Positions 9,567 through 45,529 of a DNA stretch of 45,565 bases are shown in pieces. Position numbers and translations under genes: made by a program. Numbering within the stretch: the first letter of the stretch is position 1; each line of letters opens with the position of its first letter. Origin of the DNA: Flavobacteriales bacterium (GTDB lineage Bacteria > Bacteroidota > Bacteroidia > CAIKAF01); NCBI GenBank assembly GCA_025055575.1, contig JANWWP010000005.1, positions 1 to 45,565 of the forward strand, written 5' to 3'. The notes beneath the pieces are model-generated. The model did not search any database. It had not been told where the DNA came from and saw only the letters and a list, made by a program, of their open reading frames with translations.

Positions 9567-10823
9567 CTAATTTGGTTCTGGATTGGAATCCAAAACATGG
9601 AGCACCTGATGGGTGATGCGATCGGATGCTCCGGCGTGTCTGAGAAAATATGCGTCACAAGCGGTTCTAACTTGTTCCAAGTACTGAACATTGAAGGCTG
9701 CGAGTGCGGTTTTCAGTTCCCGGGCATCCTCAATAATGCGTAATACACCGGCTTCCTGAAGTTCTAAAGCTTCGCGAAACCTTTCTACACGCGGCCCGCA
9801 AAATACCGGTATCCGCCAGACCGCGGCTTCCAATGTATTGTGAACTCCCCGCCCAAAACCGCCTCCGACATAGGCCCACTCGGCCAGCCCATATAACCAC
9901 GACAAAACGCCCATCTCCAGCAACACATGCAACCCGGGCCGGGCGTTTTTCAGCAATTCGGAAACACGCTCCCAGGTCTCGCATTCAAGCTTTTTTAGTT
10001 GGGTCTCCAAAGTCTGCAAAAATTCCCGGGGTTTATGAGGACAGACAATACATACACATGTGCTCCTGAGTTCTTTAAATACCGGTTCTAATACCGGCAT
10101 ATCTTGCGGCCAAACACTGCCGAGTACCACAAGGGGATGCGCCGGCCTCGAAAAAGCCTGCTCCACGGATGCCCTTCTACTACGAATATCGAGCACGCGG
10201 TCCACCCTTGTATCGCCAACAATTTCGGCTTCTGCACCGCAGGCTTCCACAAATTTTTGGGAAACGCCGTCCTGGACCCAAATTTTTGTAAACAAGGGCA
10301 GCACCCTTCGGAAAAAAAGCAAAAGGCGCTTGTGACGGGGTGTAAAGTGCGCTGAAATCAAAAAAAGGGGAATACCCCGTTGGCGCACCTCATTTAAAAT
10401 ACCCCACCAAAACTCATACTTTACAAAGATCGCAAGCGTAGGATTCCATTGATTTAGAAAGCGACGGATGTCTTCTGGACGGTCGTCCGGCAAAAATGCC
10501 AGGGCATGGGCCGGCCAATCCTTTTTGCGCAAAGCAAAGTTGAAACCCGACCCCGAAAACACCGTAACAAGCAGGAAGGCTTCAGGCCGTGCATAGCGTA
10601 ATCGTTCAAGGATGGGAATAGCCTGTTCCAACTCGCCGGCCGAAGCACAATGAAACCATACAACTTTATCCCCTGGAGCCGGATGTTTCCAGCACTTGGG
10701 CGGTTTGGAGAGGCCTTGAACCCTCTGGCGGGCTGCCGAATGCCCCAAAGCGGCCAAAAAATGCAGAATAGTAAAATAGGCCCGTGTGGCTCCCTTGTAA
10801 ATGCCGAACAAAAGGCGGTTCAT
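9567..10823 (-). CDS. waaA: 3-deoxy-D-manno-octulosonic acid (Kdo) transferase
   Basis: A 418-residue GT-B glycosyltransferase of family GT30. The N terminus has a hydrophobic anchor; then the family's WFHCASAGELEQA segment gives the catalytic Glu (about residue 63) that acts as general base. KYEFWWGIL and the LFLISAHF segment are diagnostic of WaaA, and the C-terminal half has the nucleotide-sugar site (YVGGGFGRGVHNTLEAA). It moves Kdo from CMP-Kdo to lipid A precursor at the cytoplasmic face of the inner membrane. It overlaps the upstream barrel-like gene by 4 bp (ATGA), so the two are coupled, and the convergent aminopeptidase gene ends 6 bp away. Confidence 0.95.
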   Translation of the reverse strand: MNRLLFGIYKGATRAYFTILHFLAALGHSAARQRVQGLSKPPKCWKHPAPGDKVVWFHCASAGELEQAIPILERLRYARPEAFLLVTVFSGSGFNFALRKKDWPAHALAFLPDDRPEDIRRFLNQWNPTLAIFVKYEFWWGILNEVRQRGIPLFLISAHFTPRHKRLLLFFRRVLPLFTKIWVQDGVSQKFVEACGAEAEIVGDTRVDRVLDIRSRRASVEQAFSRPAHPLVVLGSVWPQDMPVLEPVFKELRSTCVCIVCPHKPREFLQTLETQLKKLECETWERVSELLKNARPGLHVLLEMGVLSWLYGLAEWAYVGGGFGRGVHNTLEAAVWRIPVFCGPRVERFREALELQEAGVLRIIEDARELKTALAAFNVQYLEQVRTACDAYFLRHAGASDRITHQVLHVLDSNPEPN

Positions 10824-41136: not shown

Positions 41137-44100
41137 ATGAATCTTGAAAATCCCATTCTTAACAGCCCTTACGAAGAACCTAAGTTGCATTACGCTACAC
41201 ACCATGACGGTTCTTTGAACTATGAAGATATCCGCCAAGGCCGGCGGATTTTCACGCCCGACATACAAGCGATACCTACAAAGCAAGGTCCGCAACCTTC
41301 CTTTTTCGAAGTCAATGACTTTGCCGCTGAATACGGCGACCACCTGATCAACCTTTGCCGCAGAGAAGTGGGCAAGTGGAGAGCCGAAAAATATCCCAAC
41401 ACAACAAGAGTAACAAAAGAACTGCTGCTGTTTTGGTTTGAAAATTCCGAACGACACGCAATAAAAAAACTTTTCTTTGCCCAACGGGAGGCGATCGAAA
41501 CTGCTATTTGGCTGAACGAAGTGGCCGGCAGGTCAAATGCCGGACAGAACATTCTCAATAAAATTCGTGATGCACAGAAAACCGTAAGCGAGAAGCCGGA
41601 AGATCAATTGCCTCGAATTGCATTTAAAATGGCCACAGGAACCGGCAAGACCGTTGTAATGGGTTGCTTAATTCTTTACCATTATTTCAACAGACAAGAA
41701 TATAAAAACGATGCCCGTTTTGCCGACTACTTCTTAATTGTTGCACCGGGCGTTACCATTAAAGACCGTTTGGGCGTTTTGTTTGTGGACACCAAAAACA
41801 AACACCAGCGCGAAGATTACTATTTCCAAAGGGGTTTGGTTCCGCAAAGTTTGGAACACCGACTGGAAAACTTAAATGCACGATTGGTCATTACCAACTA
41901 CCACGCCTTTGAACCCAAAACACTGCAAGGCAACAAAAGAAGTCCGTTTGATGGCAAGTTAGATTCAGACGGCAAAAAGCAAGAAGCCAATGAAGATTTC
42001 TCACAAGTCATTCGCAGAATTTTAGGCAAATTCAAAAAGGACAGCCGCCTGCTCATTATTAATGATGAAGCCCATCACTGCTATTTACCTAAATCATCAG
42101 GTAAGACAGAAGACAATGAAGAAACAGACGAGAATGCAAGAGCAGCCGTTTGGTTTACAGGCCTGAGAGAAATTGCACAGCGTTACAAAGTGCAATATGT
42201 GTACGATCTATCGGCAACACCATATTACTTACAGGGTTCGGGCTACACACCTTACAGTTTATTTCCCTGGGTGGTTTCTGATTTTGGATTGATAGAAGCC
42301 ATTGAAAGCGGGTTGGTGAAAATCCCTTTCCTTCCTGAAAGCGACAACACACAGGAAATTACACAAGCCAAATTGCGTGACATTTATTCGTATGTGAAAG
42401 ACGAATTGCCACGCAAAGGACAACGCAGGAAAAAATCTGAAGCGAAAGAAGAAGGCACAACGCTGAAAGAAGCTCCGCCAAAACTTCCTGCATTGGTGAA
42501 AGGTGCGTTAGACCAGTTTTACAATCACTATAAAGACTATTATGATGGCCACCGCAAGCAACTTGAAGAAAGGCTAAATCTTTTCTCGTCACCGCCTGTA
42601 TTTATTGTTGTTTGCAACAACACCTCGGTTTCCAAAGAAGTTTATAAATACATTGCCGGCTATGAATTTGAAAATGAAAACGGAGAATTAATTACCGTTC
42701 CCGGACATTATGAATTGTTTTCAAACTATGACCGCACAACGAATAAGCCGCTGAAACGACCTCCCACTTTGCTCATCGACAGCGATGCGCTGGAAAACAA
42801 CGACCAAATCAATGATGAGTTTAAAAAAATTTTCGCTTCGGAAATTGAAGAGTTTAAAAAAGATTATGCACGTATCTATGGCCAGGGCAGCGCTGAACGC
42901 ATTACCGATGCTCAAATTTTACGTGAAGTGGTCAACACAGTGGGCAAGCCCGGCAAATTAGGTGCTCACATTCGTTGTGTGGTTTCCGTTTCCATGCTCA
43001 CAGAAGGTTGGGATGCAAACACCGTAACCCACATCATGGGTATTCGCAAATTTGGTTCTCAATTGCTTTGCGAACAGGTGGCTGGTCGTGCCTTGCGTAG
43101 AATGAATTACTTTTTGCAGGGTTACGACAAAGACGGAAACCCCACCAACGACAAGAGAAAAATTGTGGTGGAGAAATTCCCGCCCGAATATGCGCACATC
43201 ATTGGTGTGCCTTTCAAAATGTTTAAAGGCGGAAAAACAACTACACCACCTAAACCGGTTGAGCTTACACACATTTACGCATTGCCCGAACGACAATTAG
43301 CATACGAAATCACTTTCCCGAATGTGATCGGTTATAGGGTAGAGAATGCAGACAACGAACTGGAATACGATTACAGCAAATTAGAAAACTTTGAAGTGGA
43401 TTGTACCAAATTTCCTTTGCAAACCACCATGGCATCAGCATTCCTTCCCAAAGAAGAAACACTGGAAGTGCAAAGTGTGTTTGAAAAACGCAAACAGGAA
43501 ATCATTTTTTTGCTCACCAAAGAACTCATCAATTATCATTTCAGTGATGACGACCAAAACCCCAAATTTCAATACTTCGGCAAGTTGAAAGAAATTGTTT
43601 CTTATTGGTACGACAACAAAGTGGTATTGATAGGAGAAAGAGATGAAAAATACAAAAAGCTGCTTTATTTCTTTGATCCAAAAGTAATGTCAGACCATAT
43701 TCGCAGGGGCATCAATCCCCAAATCAATACTACCGAGTTTATTCGCCCGGTGTTCAACTACTATAACAAGTTCGGCAGCACCAAATATGTAAATGGAAAC
43801 ACGGCTAAAGAAGTTTACCCCACACGGAAAAGCCATGTGAATTATGTGGTAGCCGATACCGACTCGTGGGAGCAAATAGCCGCTAAAACCCTGGAAGAAT
43901 TACCACAAGTGGAAAGCTATGTAAAAAATGCTTTTCTCGGTTTTGCCATTCCGTATGTAAAGGATGGCAAAGACAAACAGTATTTCCCCGATTTCATTGC
44001 ACGGGTGAAAGGCAGAGACGGCAAAGTGAAAAACCTAATCATTGAAATCTCCGGCATGAGTCATGACAAAGCGGAGAAAAAATGGTATGTGGAAAACCGT

Positions 44101-44223
44101 TGGCTGCCGGCTGTGAATGCCGTAAAAGACAAGTACGGTTATCCCGAATGGCATTTCATTGAAATTGCCCACGATATAAGAGACATAAAAAATCAATTGA
44201 CAGAAAAAATCGCAAGCATTTAG
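41137..44223 (+). CDS. Type III-like restriction subunit (DEAD/DEAH helicase-nuclease)
   Basis: A 1028-residue protein. Helicase motifs: Walker A ATGTGKT (166-172), DEAHH (310-314), SATP (359-362) and motif [11 protein letters not shown] (647-655). The C-terminal nuclease-like region has FPDF (Asp952) and then IIEIS (Glu970), a PD-(D/E)xK core in which Ser972 replaces the usual lysine. It resembles the Res subunits annotated as BPTD_3080-type restriction endonucleases. A partner methyltransferase should be nearby; the reading frame that begins at 45549 is a candidate. Codons are A/T-richer at the third position than in carB, as expected for acquired DNA. The stop lies one base before the transposase ATG. 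Confidence 0.88.
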
Positions 44224-44224
44224 T

Positions 44225-44686
44225 ATGGCTGGAACATTCTCACAGATTTACATTCAGGTCGTTTTTGCCGTAAAGGGCAGGGAGAGTCTAATTCATGCCT
44301 CTTGGGAGGAGGAGTTGTATAAATATATCAGCGGAATTGTGAGGAATAAGGAACAAAAAATATTGGCAATAAATGGTATGCCGGACCATATTCATTTTTT
44401 GATTGGCATGAAGCCCTCCTGTTGTTTATCGGATTTGGTCCGGGAGATCAAGAAGTCATCAAATGATTTTATCCGAGAGAAAAAATTTTCCAAGTTCAGG
44501 TTTCAATGGCAGGAAGGATATGGCGCGTTTTCATATAGCCATTCGGCGTTAGATAATGTCATCAGGTACATAGACAACCAGAAGGAGCATCATAAAAAAC
44601 AAACGTTCAGGGAGGAATACGTGGAGTTCTTAAAGAAATTTCAAGTAGATTACAAAGATGAGTATTTGTTTGAATGGATTGAATAA
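44225..44686 (+). CDS. IS200-like / REP-associated tyrosine (Y1, HUH) transposase
   Basis: A 153-residue Y1 transposase. The HUH metal motif is HIH at 55-57 (MPDHIHFLIGM) and the catalytic tyrosine is probably Tyr115 in RYIDNQ, giving the usual YxxxQ pattern; EGYGAFSYSHSALDNVI and QKEHHKKQTFREEY are typical of the single-domain Bacteroidetes proteins. Such enzymes cut and join single-stranded DNA at hairpins. RAYT relatives are single-copy, domesticated and tied to dispersed REP palindromes rather than to a mobile element. Here it starts one base after the restriction gene and is followed two bases after its stop by a palindrome array, which fits a RAYT. A TnpB gene is absent. Confidence 0.9.
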   Translation: MAGTFSQIYIQVVFAVKGRESLIHASWEEELYKYISGIVRNKEQKILAINGMPDHIHFLIGMKPSCCLSDLVREIKKSSNDFIREKKFSKFRFQWQEGYGAFSYSHSALDNVIRYIDNQKEHHKKQTFREEYVEFLKKFQVDYKDEYLFEWIE

Positions 44687-45509
44687 GCGAACCCGAAGGG
44701 TTCACATGTTTGTAGGGACGGCCGTAAGAAAAACATACGACCCCTACGAGGTCGCATTAACGGGTTTGTATTATGATGTTATAAACATAACATCCCTTCG
44801 GGATGGTGCACAAACCCATACAGATGGCAAGCGAACCCTTCGGGTTCGCATGTTTATAGACGGCGGTATCAAAAAAACATTCGACCCCTTAGGGGTCGTA
44901 TTATTGGGGGCATATCGTTATTCTATAAATATTTCATCCCTTCGGGATGCAGGGAGAACCCGAAGGGTTCACATGTTCGTAGACGGTGGAGGCTACATAA
45001 GCATTCCATCCCTTTGGGATGTCATCCGAACCCGAAGGGTTCACATGTTTATAGACGGTGACAACATCGAAACATTCGACCCCCAAGGGGTCGCATTTAC
45101 GGGCTTCTATTATGGTGCTACACGCATTTCATCCCTTTGGAATGTCATCCGAACCCGAAGGGTTCACATGTTTATAGACGGCGGTATCCACAAAACATTC
45201 GACCCCTTAGGGGTCGTATTAAAACCGGCATTTCGATTTTCTATAAACATTCCATCCCTTCGGGATGGTGCACAAACCCATTCAGATGGCAAGCGAACCC
45301 GAAGGGTTCACATGTTTATAGACGGTGACCCCCCCAAAACATACGACCCCTACGGGGTCGCATTAACGGGCTTCTATTATGGTGCTATACGCATTTCATC
45401 CCTTTGGGATGTAGGGAGAACCCGAAGGGTTCACATGTTTATAGACAAATATGGAGATAATGAACCCGACCCTGAAAGGGTCGTATGTAAAACATGTGTT
45501 TTTCCATAA
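44658..45509 (+). other. 283-codon frame open through the palindrome array, doubtful gene
   Basis: An ATG inside the transposase tail opens a frame through the whole array to a TAA at 45507-45509. Its product is a repeat of RTRRVHMF...DP...SL(R/W)D modules, seven in all. It has no promoter or signal of its own. The frame stays open because all unit lengths are multiples of three. It may be a by-product of the repeat, but the frame preservation deserves testing. Confidence 0.2.
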
Positions 45510-45529
45510 TTTTTCATCCCTTCGGAATG
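44689..45529. repeat. Seven-unit composite palindrome array (A-B-C) downstream of the transposase
   Basis: Seven copies of palindrome A (GAACCCGAAGGGTTC; starts 44689, 44833, 44956, 45028, 45151, 45295, 45418), six of B (CGACCCC-N3-GGGGTCG; 44738, 44882, 45077, 45200, 45344, 45467) and seven of C (CATCCC-N3-GGGATG; 44791, 44935, 45007, 45130, 45253, 45397, 45515). Order is always A-B-C; unit 3 lacks B through a 51-bp deletion. A to B is 49 bp in all six cases and A to C is 102 bp in all full units except the last (97). Unit lengths are 144, 123, 72, 123, 144 and 123 bp. A is followed by ACATGTTTATAGAC in most copies. Copy A2 has its loop inverted (TTC) and 8-bp arms. B1, C4 and C7 have one arm mismatch. 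Confidence 0.93.

Follow-up and report, generated by a model that had tools for sequence, protein, structure and literature searches.

Tagged hairpins beside an IS200-like subclass 1.2 transposase of Bacteroidota suggest a REPIN-like partnership

Near the end of the window, the whole 45,565-nucleotide stretch of Flavobacteriales DNA that was analysed, a Y1/HUH transposase gene is followed by a seven-unit array of three palindromes. We read the gene product as a catalytically intact IS200-like transposase of subclass 1.2, the hairpins as its cognate substrate, and the unit of two inverted hairpins around a central one (A>B<C) as a REPIN-like composite, with a probability of about 0.72. An independent REPIN/RAYT-like system on an IS200-type enzyme, which would bind, cleave and mobilize the hairpins, is the best reading. 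The enzyme family, the catalytic residues, the geometry of tags and hairpins, the covariation of stems, the gain and loss of units and purifying selection were established by computation; binding, the cut site and growth of the array by the enzyme we infer.

The transposase ORF occupies 44225-44686 on the forward strand and the first palindrome begins 2 nt past its stop codon, at 44689, as the original prediction had described. The array (44689-45529) lies directly 3' of the gene, stopping 36 nt short of the contig end at 45565. Palindrome A, GAACCCnnnGGGTTC, starts at 44689, 44833, 44956, 45028, 45151, 45295 and 45418; B, CGACCC(C)..(G)GGGTCG, at 44738, 44882, 45077, 45200, 45344 and 45467; and C, CATCCC..GG(G/A)ATG, at 44791, 44935, 45007, 45130, 45253, 45397 and 45515. 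Seven A-B-C units had been proposed: seven A and seven C were found, with six B, since unit 3 has none, and the last C is imperfect. The register first noticed was reproduced, with an A-to-B start-to-start distance of 49 bp in all six units that have B, and an A-to-C distance of 102 bp except in units 3 (51 bp, B missing) and 7 (97 bp). Steps from A to A are 144, 123, 72, 123, 144 and 123 bp, a higher-order alternation of two unit types, with unit 3 a clean one-step deletion. The tag of A points right and that of C left, so that both face the central B. The parts are as follows.

41137..44223, + strand: BPTD_3080 family restriction endonuclease (context), stop codon 1 nt before transposase start
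44225..44686, + strand: TnpA, HUH/Y1 single-strand transposase, IS200-like, Quentin subclass 1.2; H55-x-H57, W95-Q96, Y115...Q119..H122-H123
44689..44703, + strand: A1 hairpin, tag GTAG 44712-44715
44738..44754, no strand: B1 hairpin, central, one mismatch
44791..44805, - strand: C1 hairpin, inverted, tag degenerate (TTAT)
44833..44847, + strand: A2 hairpin, loop inverted (TTC), tag ATAG 44856-44859
44882..44898, no strand: B2 hairpin, central
44935..44949, - strand: C2 hairpin, inverted, tag CTAT 44923-44926
44956..44970, + strand: A3 hairpin (unit 3, without B), tag GTAG 44979-44982
45007..45021, - strand: C3 hairpin, tag lost
45028..45042, + strand: A4 hairpin, tag ATAG 45051-45054
45077..45093, no strand: B4 hairpin, central
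45130..45144, - strand: C4 hairpin, one mismatch, tag in degenerate context
45151..45165, + strand: A5 hairpin, tag ATAG 45174-45177
45200..45216, no strand: B5 hairpin, central
45253..45267, - strand: C5 hairpin, inverted, tag CTAT 45241-45244
45295..45309, + strand: A6 hairpin, tag ATAG 45318-45321
45344..45360, no strand: B6 hairpin, central
45397..45411, - strand: C6 hairpin, inverted, tag CTAT 45385-45388
45418..45432, + strand: A7 hairpin, tag ATAG 45441-45444
45467..45483, no strand: B7 hairpin, diverged (CGACCCTGAAAGGGTCG)
45515..45529, - strand: C7 hairpin, one mismatch, tag lost, array end

The array contains 17 perfect hairpins (6-bp stem, 3-nt loop) within 854 bp, compared with a mean of 0.29 and a maximum of 2 in 1000 dinucleotide shuffles, and with 0.47 per kb in the remainder of the window. 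Between units, the hairpins diverge by 7-12% and the spacers by 39-43%. The loop of A2 (44833-44847) reads TTC, inverted relative to GAA in the other A copies, as inversion of the hairpin would give. A CRISPR array was rejected on anatomy alone, the repeats being palindromes with tags and the spacers being common to the units.

The transposase protein (153 aa) matches Pfam Y1_Tnp with E=2.8e-27 and scores above the cut-off of the NCBIfam IS200/IS605 transposase model. It had been called RAYT-like; assignment to the RAYTs (TnpA_REP, class 2; PMC6006769) was rejected because the defining motifs are absent, with Y115-I-D-N-Q in place of Y---NP, and because REP_Tyr_transpos (NF047646) gives 32.8 bits against a cut-off of 80. 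The class proposed was therefore wrong, the kind of partnership right. Both its sequence signature and its fold place the enzyme in TnpA subclass 1.2 within class 1 (IS200-like); it combines HUH and Y---Q--HH motifs, short length, low copy number (one gene copy in its own genome) and relatives in Bacteroidota. Quentin et al. (2018) described this subclass by Y---Q--HH, about 150 aa, low copy number and a distribution mostly in Bacteroidota and Cyanobacteria; they set it apart as IS200-like enzymes that have neither IS ends nor REPs, and their table gives no REP for it (PMC6006769). H55, H57, Y115, Q119, H122 and H123 are conserved in 117-121 of the 121 proteins compared (window and homologues), among which H57, Y115, Q119 and H123 are invariant or nearly so, and the catalytic residues of the transposase are intact. 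The best PDB matches of the AF2 model (pLDDT 95.8) are the TnpA proteins of IS608 and ISDra2, in many cases in structures that include hairpin DNA. The RAYT structure 4er8 is also among the matches; TM-scores are ~0.55-0.73, with a large rmsd that perhaps reflects a different placement of the C-terminal helix.

Hairpins accompany the gene well beyond the window. At 121 Bacteroidota loci (the window and 120 homologues), perfect hairpins are five times denser near the gene than far off, on both sides, with 2.19/kb at less than 700 bp and 0.43/kb beyond 1500 bp. A second, named set of 52 loci, partly overlapping the first, gave 1.74/kb near the gene and 0.46/kb far from it. When hairpins were picked first, 138 arms near the gene, from 46 loci, had [GA]TAG at precisely 14 nt past the loop; among 151 distant hairpins, [GA]TAG occurred at no single offset as often as four times. 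In the converse test, starting from 141 tag motifs, at least five of six stem pairs were present at the expected offset in 78%, compared with 0-4% when the frame was slid by 1-4 nt, and 29 different stems satisfied the rule. The consensus sequence, RYYCC-(3-4 nt loop)-GGRRY-n-A-n-ATRTTKRTAG-AAA, places [AG]TAG 6-8 nt beyond the stem; on the opposite strand, a CTAY element lies 5' of the tagged hairpin, on the side where guide and cleavage sequences are located in IS200/IS605 and REP elements. Distances from one loop to the next peak at 46-51 nt. On the strand carrying the 3' [AG]TAG, the 5' flank of the hairpin shows no conservation. Many distant homologues have few perfect hairpins under the strict definition, which counts against our explanation. 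Two distant homologues (L156 and L158) adjoin another hairpin type, such as CCCCGGAATGAATTCCGGGG and CCCAGGGATTCATCCCTGGG, possibly a separate recognition class.

Tagged hairpins thus adjoin the gene across a family whose published traits include having no associated REP. The automatic search of 2018 demanded GT[AG]G 0-2 nt 5' of the hairpin (PMC6006769), as at the hairpin foot in RAYT systems, and would have missed an [AG]TAG lying 14 nt 3' of the loop. The hairpin partner extends the published description of subclass 1.2; it is not a sequence criterion of membership.

Stem similarity tracks enzyme identity (Mantel r 0.36, 0 of 2000 permutations), a value that is only indicative as the loci are not independent. 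Similarity is 2.6 of 6 at 30-45% enzyme identity and 4.65 at 65% identity or more, even between host families, and different enzymes within one genome have unlike stems (3.0 of 6). Each enzyme thus has its own palindrome family, as RAYTs do, and these comparisons are indicative of stems following enzyme relatedness rather than the host. Of 395 genomes sampled from the phylum, 165 had homologues of the enzyme, and the enzyme was present in 44 of the 64 with the tag pattern (Fisher P = 2e-6, 395 genomes). The original prediction would have been contradicted by arrays in strains lacking the transposase, and this was partly borne out: in 19 of 20 sampled genomes with tagged hairpins and no close homologue, the enzyme is absent even by profile search, while the association across genomes is strong. 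Dispersed tagged hairpins ..ATATTGGTAG were seen without a subclass 1.2 enzyme in G071, G225, G010, G117, G213 and others (family f19, genus g60); most of the checked genomes of this kind have only longer, weaker Y1_Tnp proteins.

The A and C hairpins form an inverted pair with the same fixed tag, flanking B, in keeping with two inverted palindromes acting as one unit in REPINs. Units of this form with other stems also stand next to homologues of the enzyme from other families and orders, namely in a Chitinophagaceae locus (L164), in Parvibacillus (L165, tags partly degenerate) and in G123, G011, G016, L173, L174 and L100. That the three palindromes make up a composite substrate, as had been suggested, is well supported by the inverted A and C with their common tag, by this recurrence and by stems that track the enzyme. 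We propose that each A>B<C unit makes up a REPIN-like, presumptively non-autonomous composite element. Of 199 loci, a strict search recovered this form at 8; what the family shares is therefore not the triple unit but tagged hairpins in other layouts. These include direct 50-bp tandems (L051), paired hairpins on each side of the gene in Chryseobacterium, and a gene-less four-hairpin form (G206). The Parvibacillus array is built of some 6.5 copies of a 236-bp unit, with 90% matches.

Dispersal within the genome is minimal. Pattern searches of the window's own genome found a single further A>B<C unit outside the array, standing alone on contig 39 (about 9752-9880; about 1455-1580 in L245), with the same geometry, different A and C stems and no transposase on the stretch read. 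The expectation of units scattered genome-wide therefore failed here, as does the high-copy dispersal that marks REPs and REPINs, and mobility in this genome would be weak or old. Other genomes have up to 27 tag-pattern matches. The units of the window are too different from one another for recent copying. At an orthologous locus with flanks 86-89% identical, two genomes (G011 and G016) differ by whole units. The gene itself is under purifying selection. In several Chryseobacterium species it lies between fadB and fadA, with a median dN/dS of 0.10, and one species of that group has hairpin remnants without the transposase gene; this relic and the four-hairpin copy of G206, both lacking the transposase, look like non-autonomous derivatives. 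In some species of the group (L261, L269, L274, L278), the fadB-fadA site holds another small gene (MHNFR[DE]LEVW..), whose product resembles four-helix-bundle proteins.

The window protein has its closest relatives (90%, 86%, 82%, 80% and 78%) in four different orders, which suggests horizontal transfer. Only two long, clear homologues were found among 72,556 plasmid records, so the gene is not typically plasmid-borne. Homologues on contigs labelled Anaerolineales, Neomarinimicrobiota and Verrucomicrobia (L204, L207, L221, L234, L239), some with tagged hairpins, reflect either transfer across phyla or mis-binned contigs.

The hairpin module is very probably the enzyme's own recognition substrate. 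In the mechanism we propose, the enzyme would bind hairpins that fold where the DNA is single-stranded, probably in the lagging-strand template. It would then cleave at the CTAY/RTAG tag and rejoin the ends. New units would land at an existing tag, which would account for both in-register tandem growth and rare dispersed units. In IS200/IS605 and REP systems a guide 5' of the hairpin picks the cut site (PMC8266576); by analogy, the strand with CTAY before the hairpin would be the likelier substrate.

Recombination between repeats is a serious rival for the growth of the array. The hairpins could be cognate sites while replication slippage or homologous recombination, rather than the enzyme, changes the array size, a plausible account to which we give somewhat less than even odds. 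The varying unit lengths (72, 123 and 144 bp), the two alternating unit types, the one-step deletion in unit 3 and the Parvibacillus repeats all fit it, whereas dispersed single units would be left unexplained by slippage or recombination alone. That the hairpins have nothing to do with the enzyme and serve the operon by terminating transcription or stabilizing mRNA is very unlikely: GC-rich hairpins do follow a gene, and E. coli REPs have such side effects, but here hairpins lie on both sides of the gene, are followed by the fixed RTAG tag rather than a run of T, and have stems that follow the enzyme. We rejected, as scarcely credible, a repeat protein encoded by the array. A 283-aa open frame does span 44658-45509, the unit lengths are all multiples of three and the Chitinophagaceae locus also has an open frame; however, differences between units fall on the three codon positions 88, 119 and 74 times, with no third-position bias, conservation follows hairpins and tags rather than codons, and unit steps elsewhere are not multiples of three.

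The restriction-modification (RM) surroundings of the window raise a further alternative, in which the array lets the enzyme swap specificity or other genes of RM operons, as attC sites do in integrons. In the window, 1 nt separates the stop codon of the BPTD_3080 family restriction gene from the start of the transposase gene, and five relatives (L164, 90%; L165, 86%; L166, 82%; L168, 79%; L169, 75%) are located within or next to RM operons of various types. The transposase is placed between hsdR and hsdM in L164, L166 and L168 and upstream of hsdR in L169, the Parvibacillus order is hsdM-tnp-2.6 kb hairpin array-hsdS, and at three of these loci (the window, L164 and L168) the transposase gene adjoins or overlaps the restriction-gene stop codon. 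On the other hand, the close relatives L167, L170, L171 and L172, like most of the family, adjoin unrelated genes, and no rearranged operons were seen among the loci compared; we consider this cassette function unlikely, and the RM setting may be functional or may reflect hitch-hiking. Over the family, upstream neighbours are diverse, with no Pfam family shared by more than 4 of the 95 loci, and PADLOC tallies reach at most 3 of 95. A family-wide link to defence genes was therefore rejected, being seen only among the window's closest relatives. That in one lineage the hairpin system was built into RM operons, with the array used to rearrange or exchange RM genes, is a doubtful proposition.

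The reading of the hairpins as cognate substrate of a subclass 1.2 enzyme can be set against known systems. The published subclass (PMC6006769) has the same signature, size, low copy number and IS200-like core; here tagged hairpins, often in arrays, are added. RAYT/REP/BIME/REPIN systems share a low-copy Y1 enzyme under purifying selection, enzyme-specific palindromes on both sides, inverted pairs, a TAG-containing tag and the WQ motif, but differ in having Y---NP instead of Y---Q--HH, in tag position and distance, in lacking a third central hairpin, and in dispersal, with few dispersed copies here. Elements of IS200/IS605 (IS608, ISDra2; subclass 1.1) share the HUH/Y1 fold, the catalytic residues, the closest structures and subterminal hairpins near cleavage tetranucleotides. 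Unlike these, the window has one gene copy and multiple regularly spaced hairpins rather than one per end, and no left-end hairpin of the array kind occurs upstream of the gene. An IS would have a hairpin at each end and several identical copies; the window has neither, while Chryseobacterium copies do have hairpins at both ends. No TnpB gene was seen upstream in the window, and the downstream side ends with the contig. The GTAG- and CGTC-tagged palindromic repeats (PMC3733652) are also short palindromes with a fixed tetranucleotide tag; there the tag marks the repeat end, whereas here it lies 14 nt from the loop, 6-8 nt past the stem, in three-hairpin units. Integron attC arrays are likewise single-strand hairpin sites in series between genes, served by a tyrosine integrase instead of an HUH/Y1 enzyme and separated by gene cassettes, which are absent between the hairpins here.

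Among open-licence papers, we found no account of hairpins with subclass 1.2. For specialists the surprise is that a subclass reported to be REP-less has a strict hairpin-and-tag partner across Bacteroidota. The rule provides a predicted substrate, testable with oligonucleotides, for enzymes previously without a known one, and a simple means to annotate such hairpins in Bacteroidota genomes. If true, it would point to more than one origin of REPIN/RAYT-like partnerships among IS200-type transposases.
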